Assembly: GCF_900112245.1 (NCBI RefSeq)
Contig: NZ_FOYX01000003.1
Coordinates: forward strand, 248,001-312,000
DNA: 64,000 nt
Reading direction: 5' to 3'
Source of the DNA: Maribacter stanieri
GTDB lineage: Bacteria > Bacteroidota > Bacteroidia > Flavobacteriales > Flavobacteriaceae
A model generated the notes under the pieces. The model searched no databases and was not told the DNA's origin. It worked only from the letters and a program-made list of their open reading frames with translations. This document shows, piece by piece, positions 31,575 to 38,379 of the stretch. Position 1 is the stretch's first letter. Each line of letters opens with the position of its first letter. Position numbers and translations under genes: made by a program.

Positions 31575-31689
31575 GACGGAAAGGTAATAAATAACTGAAA
31601 TTCAATCTTTTCAAATGATTCTTTATTCGACAGAAATAAAGAGTTTAAAAATAAATAAGAAAAGGCTTTATTAGATAAGAAATCCTTTA

Positions 31690-31697
31690 TATATTTG
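31690..31697 (+). promoter_or_regulatory. Bacteroidota -7 element (TATATTTG) of tRNA-Ser
   Basis: TATATTTG matches TAnnTTTG and lies about 35 bases before the mature tRNA 5' end, which fits a tRNA promoter. No sharp -33 TTG is visible. Confidence 0.55.
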
Positions 31698-31732
31698 CAC
31701 CCGCATTCAGGGAATACCTGATAAGGCACTCA

Positions 31733-31817
31733 GGAGAAATGGCAGAGTGGTCGAATGCGGCAGTCTTGAAAACTGTTGAGGGTCACACCTCCGGGGGTTC
31801 GAATCCCTCTTTCTCCG
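31733..31817 (+). tRNA. tRNA-Ser (anticodon TGA)
   Basis: An 85-base cloverleaf can be drawn. The acceptor stem GGAGAAA pairs with TTTCTCC, the anticodon loop is CTTGAAA with TGA, and there is a long serine-type variable arm. The T-loop GGTTCGAATCC is canonical. The discriminator is G and CA follows directly in the genome. A terminator follows within a few bases. The 3' half faces the reverse transcriptase locus. Confidence 0.95.
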
Positions 31818-31820
31818 CAG

Positions 31821-31860
31821 AAAAGCCCCGTAAACATAATGTTTACGGGGCTTTATTTTT
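31821..31860 (+). terminator. Terminator after tRNA-Ser
   Basis: A perfect stem of about 14 bp (AAAGCCCCGTAAAC with its complement) and a T-rich tail follow the tRNA directly. Confidence 0.92.
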
Positions 31861-31929
31861 GTTATTTCCAATATGTTAATTTCTCCATTTTATAATTCAT
31901 AACCTTCAGGAGATTTCAAATTAGTTTTA

Positions 31930-33441
31930 TTATAATTCAGGAGTATTATCAAATTTAAATTTCATCATGTATTTTTTCAATATTATCATATGTTTTCTCA
32001 ACTGTCTTTTTATTTCTGGTGCTTCCATAATATCGGATGCTCTGTAGGCATACTTTATAAAATTACCTCTATACTTTCTAGAGAATTCTTTTTTTATTAG
32101 TTTACCTTCATGAAATATAACTTTACTGGCAGGTAATTTTCTAGATTTAATACCCCTGAAGCTGTAAAGTCTATATATTTTTCTTTTAAAAATTATGGCT
32201 TCCTCTGTTAAATTTTTTTGTTGTACAGACTCTATACGTTTTGCTTTTATGGAAATGCTCTCTTTCATTTCACGATAAAATCGAGAAACATTTGCGGATT
32301 TTATTAAAGTCTTATATCCGTAAAAGTCAAAGCCAAGATATTGTAGAAAGGAGTTTGGAATAAATTTATCTCCATTAATTTTGAAACACTCTAGTCTATT
32401 TTCAATAGTTTTAAACCTGAATTTTTCAGTTTTATCCTTAGATATTGTTAATTTAATTTTACTTATTTCTTCTAATACAATATTTTCAGTGAAGTCGATA
32501 TCTTCATTATTGCAGATAACAACTAAATCATCTGAATACCTACGATAATAGCAATTTTTATTTTTGACTAATTTTTCAATTATATTTTTATCAAAAGGAA
32601 GCATATATAGATTAGCTAACATTGCGCTTATTGGAAGTCCTTGGGGAATTCCAGAAATAATACCATCTCTTTTTTTTTGATTTTTATATACCTGAATTTC
32701 TGCATTTTTAAAATCTTGATAATTTTCAAATAGTTGAAATTTGCCTTTATTTCTAAGTAAAGCTATCTTCTTTTCATCCAGGTTACCCTTATATCTAACT
32801 CGTAAATCATCGTAATAAAAATAACTGTAATTTGTGATAGATTTAAAAACAGCATAGTGGTCTTTAGGTAATGTTTTTGTTCCTAAAATTGAACTCCAAA
32901 CAAATTTTAATTGTGAATGGTTTAAGGATGGAAAGAAATTTTTTATATCAAAAGCTAAAACAGTACAATCTTTTCTTTCCTTTATTTCATAAAAGACATC
33001 TTTGGCAAAATCAACGTTATACTTAAAACGTAAATTATCATGGCTTTTAATTTGCCTATATGCTGTTATACTTTCGTTGAGGTTTTTGTCGGCTTTTAAG
33101 TAATCTTCGTATTTCGGCTGTATTATTTTGTGGGAATAGTAAGAATAGATATGTGAATCAATATGTGTAGAGTACATAATAGGTCGCATTTTAGTATTGG
33201 CAATTATTTGACCTTTGTCATCTACAGCTTTATGTGATCTTCTTCCTAATTCATTTGAATACTTGTACCTCCTGTTAAATGTTTGCTTTAAAATAAAAGG
33301 CGAAAATTTATGAGCTTTAACCTTCTCTTTATTTGATATATAGTTTGAGACCTTCTCTTTATCTTTCTTTTTAATTTGGTTGGTTAAATGGAGATAGCCT
33401 CGGTCTTTGAACCAATCTTTGGTTGATAAAGTATTCTTCAT
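31930..33441 (-). CDS. Reverse transcriptase of the unknown-group / defence-associated type
   Basis: This 503-residue RNA-directed DNA polymerase has motif A in AFDIKNFFPS (catalytic Asp165), motif B in GIPQGLPISAMLANLY (264-279), and motif C as YSDD (302-305). The motif D-E region ends with LQYLGFDFYG (366-375). The C-terminal 130 residues are basic and mostly helical. Retron hallmarks (NAxxH, VTG) and group II maturase or HNH domains are absent, and DGR partners are absent. The protein fits the unknown-group (UG/DRT) RTs, many of which are anti-phage. It starts 13 bases after a structured non-coding region. The exact subgroup cannot be named without a phylogeny. Confidence 0.9.
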   Translation of the reverse strand: MKNTLSTKDWFKDRGYLHLTNQIKKKDKEKVSNYISNKEKVKAHKFSPFILKQTFNRRYKYSNELGRRSHKAVDDKGQIIANTKMRPIMYSTHIDSHIYSYYSHKIIQPKYEDYLKADKNLNESITAYRQIKSHDNLRFKYNVDFAKDVFYEIKERKDCTVLAFDIKNFFPSLNHSQLKFVWSSILGTKTLPKDHYAVFKSITNYSYFYYDDLRVRYKGNLDEKKIALLRNKGKFQLFENYQDFKNAEIQVYKNQKKRDGIISGIPQGLPISAMLANLYMLPFDKNIIEKLVKNKNCYYRRYSDDLVVICNNEDIDFTENIVLEEISKIKLTISKDKTEKFRFKTIENRLECFKINGDKFIPNSFLQYLGFDFYGYKTLIKSANVSRFYREMKESISIKAKRIESVQQKNLTEEAIIFKRKIYRLYSFRGIKSRKLPASKVIFHEGKLIKKEFSRKYRGNFIKYAYRASDIMEAPEIKRQLRKHMIILKKYMMKFKFDNTPEL

Positions 33442-33453
33442 AATTTAAAAAAA

Positions 33454-33831
33454 AGGAAGTCCTTAAAGCTAGTTAACTAAAAGTTCATAACACTATTAAA
33501 ACTTAGTTGTACCACTAACCGAATTCTCGGTTCACTTTGCGTTGTTACGGTATTTGATACACCAGATAAGTAAAGTCATAATGACACGTATAATCTCTAA
33601 ACCTTCAAATAGTATGAAAATCTATCGAACATCCTTATATACTTTAATTCTGTTGTTAGTACCTTGGACAGTAAATGTTGAATCCATCGATGGAGTTGAC
33701 ATTTACTGGGCAATGGTACAATAAAATCAATCTACGTATGTATTATCCCTTTTATAATAAAGGTCTGATTGATTGGAATATTAATTCACCACGATACAGT
33801 AAATGACACTTTTATATGTAAAGGACTTCCT
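33454..33831 (-). ncRNA. Candidate structured ncRNA partnered with the reverse transcriptase
   Basis: This non-coding stretch lies between the 210-residue gene and the RT. An 11-bp perfect complementarity joins its ends (33454-33464 with 33821-33831). Inside are a long hairpin (about 33655-33724), made of an outer GTACC/GGTAC stem, a 10-bp middle stem and an inner TCCATC/GATGGA stem; a second hairpin (33725-33774, AATCAATC/GATTGATT outer stem); and a 6-bp hairpin with a 4-base loop (33517-33532). No frame on the RT strand looks coding. By analogy with retrons and DRT systems it could be a template, primer or scaffold RNA. Its boundaries are inferred from the terminal pairing. Confidence 0.65.
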
Positions 33832-33915
33832 ATTAATTTTATAAAATTAATAAATTTCAGTTTTAAAAACTGTTTTAAATGCATATTTACTTTTGGTATA
33901 TTTCCTTGTCATTTG

Positions 33916-34548
33916 TTAAGAATTCACTTGGTAAATATTCTTCCGAAAATTTTTCTTGATAAGCATTATACCATATGACTTTATATAATTCTGTGGGTCA
34001 CCACTCTTTTCACTATATTTATCTGTGTTTTCATTACTTTTAAATCCACTTAAAATGAAAGCTGGTGTTGTATGTGTCATAGTGGTTCTTGTTGTAGATT
34101 TAAAATCATGACCAGCACTTTTAAATTTTTTCCTTTTTTCAAGTTTGAAGGTTTTGAAAAAAACTCTTTTGCCAAATTCATATTTAGATTTATTGTAATT
34201 AATTGTTTCATCAATTAATTTTATATGGTCATTTTGCTGTTCTGTGTCTTTATTATGAAAAATTATTTTTTTTAAAGGAATTAAAAAATCTTGAAATAAA
34301 AATTTTTCTTCAAAAACCATTCTGTGCTGATTAAAATATGTACACAAGTATTTGGTGTTGCTAGAAATTTTTGCTTCTGATTTTTCTTTGCTATAAAGCA
34401 CTTTCTTCTTTTCATAGTGAATTTCTTTTATGCACATGAAAGGAGGTATTTGGTTAACATAAACATCCATCTCTCCAGATTCTTCGAAAGCTAGTGGATG
34501 TGATTTTAAAGTGACTATATCTCCTATCTTAAAAATTAATTCTGACAT
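33916..34548 (-). CDS. Unknown 210-residue protein of the RT locus
   Basis: I do not recognise the family. The N-terminal ~90 residues look like a small beta-barrel (FKIGDIVTLKSHPL, then alternating strands), an arrangement found in SH3-like and RNA-binding folds. The C-terminal half is basic, with KLEKRKKFKSAGHDFKS and many Ser and Thr. There is no signal peptide or membrane helix. It lies upstream of the candidate ncRNA and RT on the same strand, so one transcript could carry all three. AT-rich palindromes just downstream (33831-33852 and 33858-33872) might partly end its transcript. It may be an accessory or effector of the RT system. Confidence 0.65.
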   Translation of the reverse strand: MSELIFKIGDIVTLKSHPLAFEESGEMDVYVNQIPPFMCIKEIHYEKKKVLYSKEKSEAKISSNTKYLCTYFNQHRMVFEEKFLFQDFLIPLKKIIFHNKDTEQQNDHIKLIDETINYNKSKYEFGKRVFFKTFKLEKRKKFKSAGHDFKSTTRTTMTHTTPAFILSGFKSNENTDKYSEKSGDPQNYIKSYGIMLIKKNFRKNIYQVNS

Positions 34549-34763
34549 TTATAAACCGATTAAAAGTTAAGTTAACAAGTTAAATATTTATATTAAGTTT
34601 ATATTACGGGAAACCGTATTGCTATTCTTTAAAAAATACAATTCATTCCCCAGCTCTATATTTTCTTAGTTTTTTTTAATAGGATTATATTATATTTAGG
34701 ATATCAAAAGCAATAGGCGTATTTTATTTGTTGCTTTTAAAAACCCCTTCTCCTAGATAAATT

Positions 34764-36095
34764 ATGATAAAAGCTAAAATTCATGAAAGAGAAAAAGAAA
34801 GACTTGCTCTTCTTCAATCTTATTCTATTTTAGATACGCTGCCAGAAAAGGATTATGATAATCTTACCAAGCTTGCAGCAGAAATTTGCCAAACGCCTAT
34901 TTCATTAATTACATTACTTGACGATAAAAGACAGTGGTTTAAATCTCATTACGGTTTAGAGGTTTCAGAAACACCAATAGAAGATGCTTTTTGTGCTCAT
35001 GCTATAACTGGGAATGATCCTATTTTTATCACAAAAGATGCTCGAGAAGACAATCGTTTTCATAAAAATCCTTTAGTGACCGGTGAACCCAATATTGTTT
35101 TCTATGCAGGTATTCCTTTAAAAAATGCAAATGGGTTGCCATTAGGTACATTGTGTGTCATAGATGATAAACCCAGAACATTAACAGAGAGTCAGAAAGA
35201 GTCTCTTAATGTTTTATCTGAACAGGTAATTAATTTACTGGAACTCAGAAAAAACAAATTAGAATTAGAGCGGGCCCATAAAAAATTGAAAAAGTTCTCT
35301 AAAAAATTAGAGCGAAAGGTTTTTCAACGTACCAATCAGTTAGAGATAAAGACAATCAAGTTAGAATTGATTAATAATGATTTAGAGTCATTTAACCATA
35401 TCTGTAGTCATGATTTGCAAGAACCGTTGCGAAAGATTCAAATGTTTATCTCTCAAGTAAGTGATACTGAATTTGATAATTTATCTGAAGAAGGTAAACA
35501 TAAATTAGAACGCATAGATTTATCTGCGGCACGAATGCGTAATCTTATCCAAGACCTTTTAGCCTACGGTTCTACAGAAACTATTGACAATAGTTTAACT
35601 ACGGTTTCCTTAAAAAAACTTGTTGATGAAGTTAAAGATGTTTTAAGCGAAGAATTAAAAGAGCACAAAACAGTACTTAGGGTTCAAAAGGATTGTGAGA
35701 TTACGGTTAGACCTATTCAATTTAAACAGTTGTTGTTTAACCTATTTACGAATGCTATTAAATTCTCTAAAAGAGAAGACAAACCTGTTATAAAAGTTTC
35801 CGGTAAAATTGTTGAAGGGTCAGATTACCCTGAGCTTGAATTGGCTGAAGAAAAACGGTATTCTCGTATTCTGGTCTCCGATAACGGTATTGGTTTTGAT
35901 CAGAAATATGAAAGAAAAGTATTTGAAATATTTCAACGTTTGCATAGCGATGAAGAGTACCAAGGTACAGGTATTGGACTAGCCATTGTAAAAAGAATCA
36001 TAACCACCCATAACGGACAAATTAGAGTAGAGAGTTCACTTGGTAATGGTGCTACTTTTGAAATTTTTATTCCCCTTGCAGATCAAGCGATTTAA
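34764..36095 (+). CDS. GAF-domain sensor histidine kinase
   Basis: This 443-residue soluble kinase has an N-terminal GAF domain (about 20-160, with the GLEVSETPIEDAFCAH and GTLCVIDD motifs typical of GAF kinases). A coiled coil follows (about 160-210), then HisKA with His216 in CSHDLQEPLRK, and HATPase_c with N-box NLFTNAIKFSK, G1 DNGIGFD and G2 GTGIGLAI. There is no membrane segment, so it senses a cytosolic ligand or redox state. No response regulator is adjacent. Its 3' end overlaps the convergent adenosine deaminase gene by 29 bases. Confidence 0.9.
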   Translation: MIKAKIHEREKERLALLQSYSILDTLPEKDYDNLTKLAAEICQTPISLITLLDDKRQWFKSHYGLEVSETPIEDAFCAHAITGNDPIFITKDAREDNRFHKNPLVTGEPNIVFYAGIPLKNANGLPLGTLCVIDDKPRTLTESQKESLNVLSEQVINLLELRKNKLELERAHKKLKKFSKKLERKVFQRTNQLEIKTIKLELINNDLESFNHICSHDLQEPLRKIQMFISQVSDTEFDNLSEEGKHKLERIDLSAARMRNLIQDLLAYGSTETIDNSLTTVSLKKLVDEVKDVLSEELKEHKTVLRVQKDCEITVRPIQFKQLLFNLFTNAIKFSKREDKPVIKVSGKIVEGSDYPELELAEEKRYSRILVSDNGIGFDQKYERKVFEIFQRLHSDEEYQGTGIGLAIVKRIITTHNGQIRVESSLGNGATFEIFIPLADQAI

Positions 36096-37101
36096 AATAT
36101 TCTATTACGTCCCCAATATGTTTTTTCTTAGACGATTCACTCAGCCAGCTTGCTTCAAAACCATTAATGGCTAGTTGTTGTATTTGCTCTAAAGTTAAAT
36201 TCAAAGCTTTAGCGGTCTCATAATAGTTTTCATTCATATAGCCTCCAAAATATGCGGGATCGTCAGAATGTATGGTTGCCATAATTCCTTGATCAAGCAT
36301 TTTTGCTACAGGATGTTCGTTCATGTGCTGTATCACCTTTAAGGCTACATTACTTGTAGGGCACAGGGTTAAAGCAATTTTCTCGTCAACCAATCTTTTA
36401 ACTAAAGCTTCATCTGTTAAACAGCGGTTTCCGTGATCTATGCGTTCTACTTTTAAAATATCTAATGCTTCCCAAATATATTCTGACGGACCTTCTTCTC
36501 CTGCGTGAGCCACTAATTTATACCCTTGTGCTGCAGATGCCTTAAACACTTTTTCAAATTTACTTGGCGGATTTCCCATTTCTGAAGAATCTAAACCTAC
36601 TCCATCTATAATATCTTTATATGGTAGTGAAGCTTCTAAGGTCTCAAAAGCGGCCTCTTCGCTTAAGTGTCTTAAGTAGCTCATAATAAGCTTAAAGGAA
36701 ATATTTAACACACTTTTTCCTTTTTCTAAAGCGCGATAAATTCCCTTAATGACTACATCAAATGATACTCCTCTATCCGTATGAGTCTGTGGATCAAAAA
36801 ATACTTCTACATGCACAACATTCTGGCTATGAACTTTTGTTAAGTATGCCCAGGTTAAATCAAAGAAATCTTGCTCATGTAATAACACTTGAGCACCAGC
36901 ATAATAAATGTCCAAAAATTCTTGTAGGTTATTGAACTTATAAGCTTGTTTTACAGATTCAATAGAATCATAGGGTAAAGTAATTTTGTTTCTCTTAGCA
37001 ATTTCAAACATCAATTCTGGTTCAAAACTACCCTCTAAATGCAAATGGAGTTCTGCTTTAGGGATACCTTGAATAATCTTTAGAAGTTCAGTTGATTGCA
37101 T
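36067..37101 (-). CDS. add: Adenosine deaminase
   Basis: This 344-residue zinc enzyme converts adenosine to inosine in purine salvage. The first metal motif is HLHLEGS, followed by HAGEEGPS (zinc histidine and catalytic glutamate) and ERIDHG. The late zinc aspartate is in SDDPAYFGG. These motifs and the length fit adenosine deaminase; an adenine deaminase role is less likely but cannot be excluded. It overlaps the kinase gene at its 3' end. Confidence 0.9.
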   Translation of the reverse strand: MQSTELLKIIQGIPKAELHLHLEGSFEPELMFEIAKRNKITLPYDSIESVKQAYKFNNLQEFLDIYYAGAQVLLHEQDFFDLTWAYLTKVHSQNVVHVEVFFDPQTHTDRGVSFDVVIKGIYRALEKGKSVLNISFKLIMSYLRHLSEEAAFETLEASLPYKDIIDGVGLDSSEMGNPPSKFEKVFKASAAQGYKLVAHAGEEGPSEYIWEALDILKVERIDHGNRCLTDEALVKRLVDEKIALTLCPTSNVALKVIQHMNEHPVAKMLDQGIMATIHSDDPAYFGGYMNENYYETAKALNLTLEQIQQLAINGFEASWLSESSKKKHIGDVIEYFKSLDLQGE

Positions 37102-37226: not shown

Positions 37227-37610
37227 TTACAATACATACTTATTAAATATGTCTTCTAGTTCTTTTTCTGGATTGGTACTTATGCCTGATCGTGTTGTTG
37301 AGCTTTGTATAACCGTACTTCTACAAGCAGTCAACCATCCAAAACGATCAGATAAATCTAATTTACCTATAGGTCCGCCTTCAGCATTTCCTTCGCAAAT
37401 CAGTTTCCAAGCTTTTAAATATTCATTCAAAATTTCGTATTCTATTTCTGGAGTAAAAGCATTTAGTTTGGCTTTGTCAATATGATATTTGATGTCTAAA
37501 AACTTGGTTCGTTTACAGAATAAAATCACACCTACATTAAAGAATTCTTCTCTTTCTACTTTAGGTACAATTTTTACTATCGCAAATTTGAATGTATGTC
37601 TATTTTGCAT
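37227..37610 (-). CDS. DUF3037 domain protein, partner of HipA-like kinase
   Basis: This 127-residue protein matches DUF3037, whose members begin with a conserved strand like FKFAIVKIVPKVEREEFFNVGVILF. Its function is unknown. The start overlaps the end of the HipA-like kinase gene by 11 bases, so the two are translationally coupled. Such a pair recurs in other genomes. It may be a regulator or substrate-recognition partner of the kinase. Confidence 0.82.
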   Translation of the reverse strand: MQNRHTFKFAIVKIVPKVEREEFFNVGVILFCKRTKFLDIKYHIDKAKLNAFTPEIEYEILNEYLKAWKLICEGNAEGGPIGKLDLSDRFGWLTACRSTVIQSSTTRSGISTNPEKELEDIFNKYVL

Positions 37611-38379
37611 CTTCAGCTTCTTTAACTAATACATCGATCATTAATAGCTTAGCGGTTATAAATTGAATATAGGCTGCTCTTTTTGCATCGGCACCCAAAC
37701 TATCAGATTCACTTGTCAACCAATCTTCAGGAATTTTAGATACAATTTCTGTTACTTTTTCAAGGGTTATGAATTTTTGAATTTCAATAGCCGCATCGGG
37801 TAGGGTAGTTGCTTGTTGCAATAGTACATGGTCTTTTATAAATGGAAACGTTCTTGTTAAGTGACTTTCCCAAGTATCCCAATTATGATGAAAATAAAAG
37901 CTTGCTCCGTTATCGATAACCCATAGTTCATTATGCCAGTACAAGAGATTGGCATTTTTAGCAGTACGATCTATATTACTTATTAAACTGTCTAAAACCA
38001 CAACCTTTGAAGCGGTCATGGGATCAGCTTTAGAAATTAAGGGATCAAATGTAATGGCGCCCGATAGAAAATGTAAACCCAGATTAAGCCCAACACTAAA
38101 TTTCAATAAATCTTGAATTTCTTCATCAGGTTCGGTCTGTCTAAAAGAATCTTCTAAATTCATAAAGACCAATTCAGGTACTTTTAAACCAATGGCACGT
38201 GCCAATTCTCCACCAATAAATTCAGAGATGAGCGATTTTTTTCCTTGTCCCGATCCTCTAAATTTCAGTACGTATAAAAAATCATCATCTGCTTTAACGA
38301 TGGCAGGCATAGAACCACCTTCTCGTAAAGGCTGTAAATATTGAACAACATCTACTGTTCTAATATCAATTGTATTCAT
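37600..38379 (-). CDS. HipA-like serine/threonine kinase
   Basis: This 259-residue protein resembles the stand-alone HipA-like kinase domain. A lysine for ATP is in FLYVLKFRG (Lys39). The catalytic loop is NIDRTAKNANLL (Asp137, Asn142), and the metal-binding DNG is in VIDNGASF (Asp156). It is shorter than HipA toxins because the N-subdomain 1 is missing. No HipB-like antitoxin is adjacent; instead DUF3037 overlaps its 3' end. The target is unknown. Confidence 0.85.
   Translation of the reverse strand: MNTIDIRTVDVVQYLQPLREGGSMPAIVKADDDFLYVLKFRGSGQGKKSLISEFIGGELARAIGLKVPELVFMNLEDSFRQTEPDEEIQDLLKFSVGLNLGLHFLSGAITFDPLISKADPMTASKVVVLDSLISNIDRTAKNANLLYWHNELWVIDNGASFYFHHNWDTWESHLTRTFPFIKDHVLLQQATTLPDAAIEIQKFITLEKVTEIVSKIPEDWLTSESDSLGADAKRAAYIQFITAKLLMIDVLVKEAEDAK

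Follow-up and report, generated by a model that had tools for sequence, protein, structure and literature searches.

A locus on the minus strand of Maribacter stanieri contig NZ_FOYX01000003.1 is probably a divergent DRT2 (defence-associated reverse transcriptase) anti-phage system, in which a reverse transcriptase (RT) copies a structured non-coding RNA (ncRNA) repetitively into an endless reading frame, neo, with a YodC-like protein as its partner. The locus lies in a stretch of 64,000 nucleotides (contig positions 248,001 to 312,000), referred to here as the window and numbered from its first letter. Along the minus strand it comprises a 210-codon open reading frame (ORF; 33916-34548), 474 nt of intergenic sequence and a 503-codon RT with a YSDD motif (31930-33441). 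An original prediction, made from the sequence without database searches, had placed these parts on one strand; its ORFs and coordinates are confirmed, with a spacing of 474 nt in place of 470. It had also likened the layout to DRT systems that rely on a neighboring ncRNA, here with an accessory protein upstream, and this description has held: the RT is DRT2, and the ncRNA is conserved and covarying. By RT, RNA and frame logic the locus is a DRT2 that stands outside the Klebsiella-like subgroup. Both the DRT2 RT family and the RTasYodC accessory family are already catalogued; the variant features are the GTA template ends in place of ACA, the longer repeat unit and the accessory. For one divergent DRT2 clade, the locus and its relatives would supply precise jump sites and Neo repeats that can be tested, together with one accessory protein tied to that clade.

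Passages of two published accounts describe DRT2 as a system in which a template within the ncRNA is copied repeatedly by jumping between two ACA motifs, the complementary strand carrying the endless frame neo, with a promoter rebuilt at each repeat junction (PMC12039810; PMC11100668). A passage of the first account gives the infection trigger as unknown (PMC12039810).

A divergent DRT2 reverse transcriptase

31930-33441, minus strand: DRT2 (UG2) RT of 503 aa with YSDD (PADLOC Drt2, Pfam RVT_1, NCBIfam Drt2, PDB 9c0i)

Against PADLOC, the RT matches two Drt2 profiles at 440 and 316 bits, and the next other family, UG17, reaches 75 bits. Pfam RVT_1 is also matched. Among solved structures the top hits belong to Drt2 (9lje, 9c0i and others; E 8e-52), the closest being KpnDRT2 of Klebsiella pneumoniae. 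The NCBIfam Drt2 equivalog scores 361.5 bits, below its cut-off of 390, which marks the RT as a divergent member. The RT is thus DRT2/UG2 by profiles and structure match, and the original prediction, which had not placed it in any known DRT, is superseded on this point. That prediction had also raised the case of an RT grouping with a known DRT made of the same parts; the grouping is found, but the parts differ, since published DRT2 consists of RT and ncRNA with no accessory.

Other RT-bearing elements fit poorly. The best retron profiles reach 62 bits against a cut-off of 235 in NCBIfam, and 42 bits against 440 for Drt2 in PADLOC, with no Rfam retron match at gathering score. No group II intron is found at the Rfam gathering score, and the maturase profile gives 60 bits against a cut-off of 300. 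For the template and variable repeats of diversity-generating retroelements, a scan within 31600-34760 returned a longest direct repeat of 35 nt at 71%. Within the profiles and the interval searched, the hallmarks of all three classes are absent, as had been predicted.

The nearest named relative is from Aequorivita, with 78% RT identity. RT matches occur once in the window's own genome, in 12 of 395 class genomes and in 27 of 397 family genomes (the window genome is in both samples, and two others are shared between them), as well as in 29 plasmid records and three phage records; the viral contigs searched held no relative.

A conserved and covarying RNA

33454-33831, minus strand: DRT2-type ncRNA of about 378 nt, with limits from the closing stem (six-locus alignment, covariation, fold z)
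33725-33774, minus strand: 5′ handle hairpin of the ncRNA (helix 5 enclosing helix 6; covariation structure)
33670-33707, minus strand: template-internal hairpin (helices 7 and 8) showing compensatory changes (9 of 13 pairs changed on both sides)
33517-33532, minus strand: 3′ anchor hairpin (helix 9), adjoining GTA-2 and invariant in six loci

The RNA and its template were analyzed in 14 loci forming two YodC-bearing subclades: subclade 1 holds the window, L002 and L020-L023, and subclade 2 holds L003 and L024-L030. L002, from Aequorivita sp. CIP111184, is an intact locus with a unit of 174 nt. Three further loci with accessories of the WYL-YodC type (L004, L016 and L017) stood outside this alignment and analysis.

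None of 100 shuffled versions folds as well as the stretch between RT and accessory (z = -3.8). In the six loci of subclade 1, conserved 5′ and 3′ regions flank a variable center, and the RNAalifold structure has 96.9% of cells paired, with 21 of 76 pairs changed on both sides. The shuffled mean for such two-sided changes is 7.8, and sliding the structure along the alignment leaves 1-4; the structure was derived from the same alignment used to score covariation, which favors it. The structured non-coding region claimed earlier is borne out by the fold score and by covariation in six loci, the RNA proper occupying about 378 of the 474 nt.

A predicted repeat template and its antisense frame

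33549-33719, minus strand: predicted RT template of 171 nt, from GTA-1 to just before GTA-2 (equivalent units in 13 other loci)
33717-33719, minus strand: GTA-1, 5′ end of the template and predicted jump donor (shared register)
33546-33548, minus strand: GTA-2, predicted realignment site (shared register)
33549-33719, plus strand: predicted neo repeat frame, each repeat contributing 57 codons, the first full one at 33551; endless only where repeats have been joined

The variable center is bounded by two GTA sites, one just 3′ of the handle hairpin and the other just 5′ of the 3′ hairpin. The trinucleotides at the two template ends are identical in 12 of the 14 loci (11 with GTA and one with GTT), and in L028 the jump letters differ yet still match at both ends. 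Units defined in this way measure 171, 171, 171, 171, 174 and 174 nt in subclade 1 and 186, 186, 189, 183, 183, 186, 183 and 186 nt in subclade 2. In all 14 loci the unit is divisible by three and, repeated in tandem, has an antisense frame without stops. Among shuffled units 0.25-3.9% are open, and the sense strand is open in two of the 14. One antisense frame also runs open through the whole center (202-222 nt) in every locus, the last codon, just past GTA-1, being a stop in the window and L020, and center lengths agree modulo three within each subclade. For the window, L020, L021 and L022 (33542-33721), replacements are conservative in the neo frame only, with a BLOSUM sum of 176 against 12 and -52 in the others, and codon pairs with a stop number 0 in the neo frame against 56 and 9.

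A wider sample comprised 37 DRT2 loci from the class and family genomes. Upstream of the RT, 33 of them, including loci without YodC, have a longest antisense frame that outruns the longest sense frame, so Neo-like templates may be general in these DRT2s. The antisense frame is unusual at the 5% level in 24 loci, against five for the sense frame. Long antisense frames are likewise present in L004, L016 and L017 (p below 0.005 in L004).

The Bacteroidota promoter consensus consists of TTTG followed by TAnnTTTG. Matches to it peak at the predicted repeat junction (rank 1 of 170 offsets, in an offset window set after an earlier per-locus scan), and rotating the units by cluster gives P 0.0064 for the junction, again with this post hoc offset window. 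This hints at a promoter rebuilt at the junction.

Several observations weigh against this reading of the template. The end trinucleotides of L023 and L003 agree in two of three letters only (two of the 14 loci), the jump site was found by inspecting the same loci, and the anchors were written after viewing the alignment. The window's own antisense frame has p 0.075 in the 37-locus test, and unit hydrophobicity exceeds that of shuffles at the 5% level in just four of 14 loci. When the frame test was extended to all 15 unit pairs that are at least 55% identical, the BLOSUM sum of the neo frame exceeded that of the +2 frame in 12 pairs but that of the +1 frame in only seven (each pair contains 4-15 stop codons in the +1 frame, which are excluded from its sum); outside the four-locus group it beat +1 in two of nine pairs. 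The neo frame is free of stops in 12 of the 15 pairs and has 1-3 stops in three gapped pairs. From these pairwise results, protein-level selection on the neo frame is supported for the window, L020, L021 and L022 only. The promoter signal comes from three of six clusters at offsets picked after the per-locus scan, and scanned locus by locus it is not above chance. The published ACA rule, applied to two plasmid DRT2 controls, finds exactly one candidate (105 nt) in Psychrobacter but none in the second, Nitratidesulfovibrio. Within the window a 7-mer, GTTGTTA, occurs in copies 111 nt apart that enclose a rival stop-free unit containing ACA. Finally, the accessory gene is truncated, so the window copy may not work.

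The 7-mer bears on a rather unlikely alternative, in which the repeat unit of DRT2 rolling-circle cDNA is the 111 nt set off by the two GTTGTTA copies (33542-33652), with the adjoining hairpin left uncopied. Its repeat contains ACA, its length is 3 x 37 and it is stop-free, and units of 111-129 nt with ACA flanks are given in a passage of the published work (PMC12039810). However, by eye the three letters at this register are common only to the window and L020; L021 and L022 differ, and L002 and L023 lack the pair. The conservative replacements and the modulo-three length constraint, moreover, run on through the hairpin. At the register shared by the 14 loci, ACA does not flank the template, where GTA or GTT stands instead; the ACA pair at the other register was seen by eye in the window and L020. 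The 111-nt unit was set aside as the main model, its end repeat not being common to most relatives.

Under another account, which the data make very improbable, the antisense frame would be an ordinary gene for a small hydrophobic protein opposite the ncRNA, like a type I toxin, with no template jumping. A conventional 60-aa ORF with internal ATG codons and a hydrophobic stretch does lie on the plus strand (33542-33724). Its native stop, however, is not conserved, being at one place in the window and L020 and absent there in L021 and L022, and the unit lengths and matching end trinucleotides fit concatenation, which the RT family has been shown to perform.

It is also unlikely that the repetitive cDNA of this DRT2-family RT works directly as DNA, in the manner of DRT9 or DRT10, and that no Neo protein is made. 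DRT9 (UG28) and DRT10 (UG17) share with the present system Class 2 UG RTs and an ncRNA copied repetitively; they differ in RT family (UG17 75 bits against 440 for Drt2) and, in the published passages concerned, in products that are homopolymer or tandem-repeat DNA and not a long reading frame (PMC12483538; PMC12632851). A passage of Tang et al. finds Neo harder to annotate in divergent DRT2 clades and suggests alternative mechanisms (PMC11100668), and outside the four loci the protein-level conservation of the frame is weak. Against a DNA-acting product stand the concatenated frame, stop-free in all 14 loci with lengths fixed modulo three, and the conservative substitutions in the four loci.

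Repetitive copying into a neo frame, the preferred reading, is closest to KpnDRT2. The two share the RT family, a stop-free antisense frame of length divisible by three and an ncRNA that immediately precedes the RT in the same orientation, its structure conserved on either side of a template that is less so; a promoter-like match at the junction hints at a further likeness. They differ in template ends (ACA in KpnDRT2, GTA here), unit length (111-129 against 171-189 nt) and ncRNA length (280 against about 378 nt), and a covarying hairpin within the template is seen here, in subclade 1. KpnDRT2 consists of RT and ncRNA alone, whereas the present locus has a YodC-like gene and an RT below the NCBIfam Drt2 cut-off.

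A YodC-like accessory tied to one DRT2 lineage

33916-34548, minus strand: RTasYodC accessory ORF of 210 aa, frameshifted near its 3′ end (PADLOC match 2e-67, comparison with relatives)
33899-34006, minus strand, other frame: displaced C-terminal part of the accessory (RTasYodC profile 183-218, 3.4e-8)

The 210-aa ORF matches the PADLOC family RTasYodC at 2e-67 (profile positions 3-185 of 219) and RTasWYL-YodC more weakly. Accessories of the five closest relatives have 224-242 residues, and compared with three aligned relatives the window gene is short of 16 nt near its 3′ end, with loss of the frame. Inspected by eye, the protein divides into two lobes that resemble each other: in each, a proline is followed by a hydrophobic stretch, and that in turn by a YFN or WYN motif. 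The end of the second lobe is lost through the frameshift. The ORF reported earlier is real, but it is not a gene without a family: it is a frameshifted copy of a longer protein catalogued as RTasYodC (PADLOC-DB, 2023). Mestre et al. 2022 is presumably the source of that name. A literature search for YodC with DRT2 found no paper; its coverage was incomplete, and the association may well be in print. The PADLOC entries name neither RT group nor function for RTasYodC and RTasWYL-YodC, whereas here the YodC form belongs to one DRT2 clade, with WYL-YodC forms beside sister RTs.

The RTasYodC profile matches five of 395 phylum genomes, and all five matches adjoin a DRT2-like RT (G000, G272, G203, G682 and G561, the last two being L016 and L017). 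When the 37 RT loci were searched with an accessory profile, 15 proved to hold the gene; L043 and L045, two pieces of one RT in G836, had been left out of the 37. In a tree of 41 RTs (the 37 loci, two RTs beside WYL-YodC genes and two plasmid DRT2s), the 17 rows with an accessory form one side of a branch with support 100/99. No accessory was found beside the other 24 rows within the fetched flanks, which reached no more than 1.5 kb upstream and in some cases less; the two plasmid rows were scored as lacking it without a profile search. The accessory appears to be a durable component of one DRT2 lineage. The original prediction had proposed checking whether accessory and ncRNA are kept with the RT, and both are: the accessory occurs in all 17 rows of the branch and the ncRNA in each of the 14 aligned loci.

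In the six closest loci the accessory gene stands before the RNA on the RT strand; in subclade 2 and the WYL forms it is divergent. Accessories of 377-416 aa in L016, L017 and L018 match RTasWYL-YodC; they are encoded divergently from their DRT2 RTs, and these RTs are sister to the other YodC-bearing ones. The longer relative in L018 shows sub-threshold matches to DUF2158 (YodC, PF09926; E 0.0012) and to WYL. Likeness to YodC/DUF2158 is confined to this sub-threshold match in L018, whereas the window protein and that of L002 have no Pfam match and the accessory far exceeds the 50-residue profile in length. More generally, no Pfam or NCBIfam family scores above cut-off, and no relative was found among solved structures or viral contigs. 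An AlphaFold2 model of the accessory (L002 and window, two rows) had a mean predicted local distance difference test score of 31 and was rejected.

WYL-like regions are typical of regulators. The accessory is tied to one clade, is often divergent, has no recognized enzymatic domain and is joined in some loci to a WYL-like region, and these traits make a regulator, rather than an effector, the most likely role, although this is a guess with about even chances. That it is instead a real effector or toxin controlled by RT and ncRNA, as in retrons, appears quite improbable: its presence in 17 of 17 rows of the clade would suit such a role, but it belongs to no Pfam or NCBIfam family above cut-off, was not found in the fetched flanks of the 24 other DRT2 rows, and in some versions carries a WYL-like region. 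With the accessory truncated while RT and template look intact, the window copy may be mis-regulated, decaying or partly defective.

Proposed mechanism

The steps below are based on sequence as far as the reading frame, and the later ones are carried over from KpnDRT2. The RT would bind the ncRNA and, upon infection, copy the template (33719-33549) as far as GTA-1. The cDNA end would then jump from GTA-1 to re-anneal at GTA-2 and the cycle would repeat, yielding tandem double-stranded DNA with an endless frame of 57 aa per repeat in the window. By analogy with KpnDRT2, neo would be expressed from a promoter arising only at the repeat junction, and its product would arrest the infected cell. 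The YodC-like protein, it may be guessed, regulates or gates the process and is not its effector.

A more specific picture is possible but doubtful: a distinct DRT2 lineage with a GTA-guided template of 171-189 nt, a Bacteroidota-type junction promoter and a YodC-like protein, sometimes with a WYL-like region, that senses infection or licenses the switch from RNA to gene. If true, such sensing or licensing would supply the trigger step of DRT2.

Genomic setting

31733-31818, plus strand: tRNA-Ser(TGA), a neighbor and the edge of a variable site, outside the system

Apart from this tRNA, nothing in the window matches Rfam at gathering scores. The adjacency to tRNA-Ser noted earlier stands, but the distance from the tRNA end to the RT stop is 111 bases and not 113. 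The DRT2 locus looks to have been inserted at a site that varies within the genus. In the window about 2.85 kb (31819-34672) separate the tRNA from a GAF/histidine-kinase-like gene. In 36 congeneric genomes, going by the matches listed, these two genes are about 200-235 bp apart in at least four (G1001, G1117, G1118 and G801) and 4-51 kb apart in at least nine, the distances having been computed by hand. One cargo of this site (L065:4946-6214; the site was examined in L058-L065) has a recombinase-like ORF by eye. Also among the matches listed, the 3′ end of the tRNA with its terminator has short copies of 90-95% identity elsewhere in three congeners (G1139:C10:23364-23419, G1115:C1:815775-815828 and G1110:C2:441587-441643); in two of these the copy falls within the tRNA-kinase interval, a trace that would be expected of tRNA-targeted integration. 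A second tRNA-end copy beside the DRT2 locus was sought as an attachment site, and the window contains none.

In all eight subclade-2 loci (L003 and L024-L030) rmuC lies directly downstream of the RT. Since it has a single match per genome in each of the 13 genomes searched, the adjacency is ascribed to a shared chromosomal site and not to system membership, and RmuC, encoded by the sole rmuC of each genome, was rejected as a partner.

Elsewhere in the window, overlapping adjacent genes at 37227-37610 and 37600-38379 (both minus strand) match the PADLOC candidate defence pair PDC-M66B and PDC-M66A. The gene at 36067-37101 (minus strand) matches the second half of PADLOC CARF_ADA, adenosine-deaminase-like by name, and is probably a housekeeping gene.

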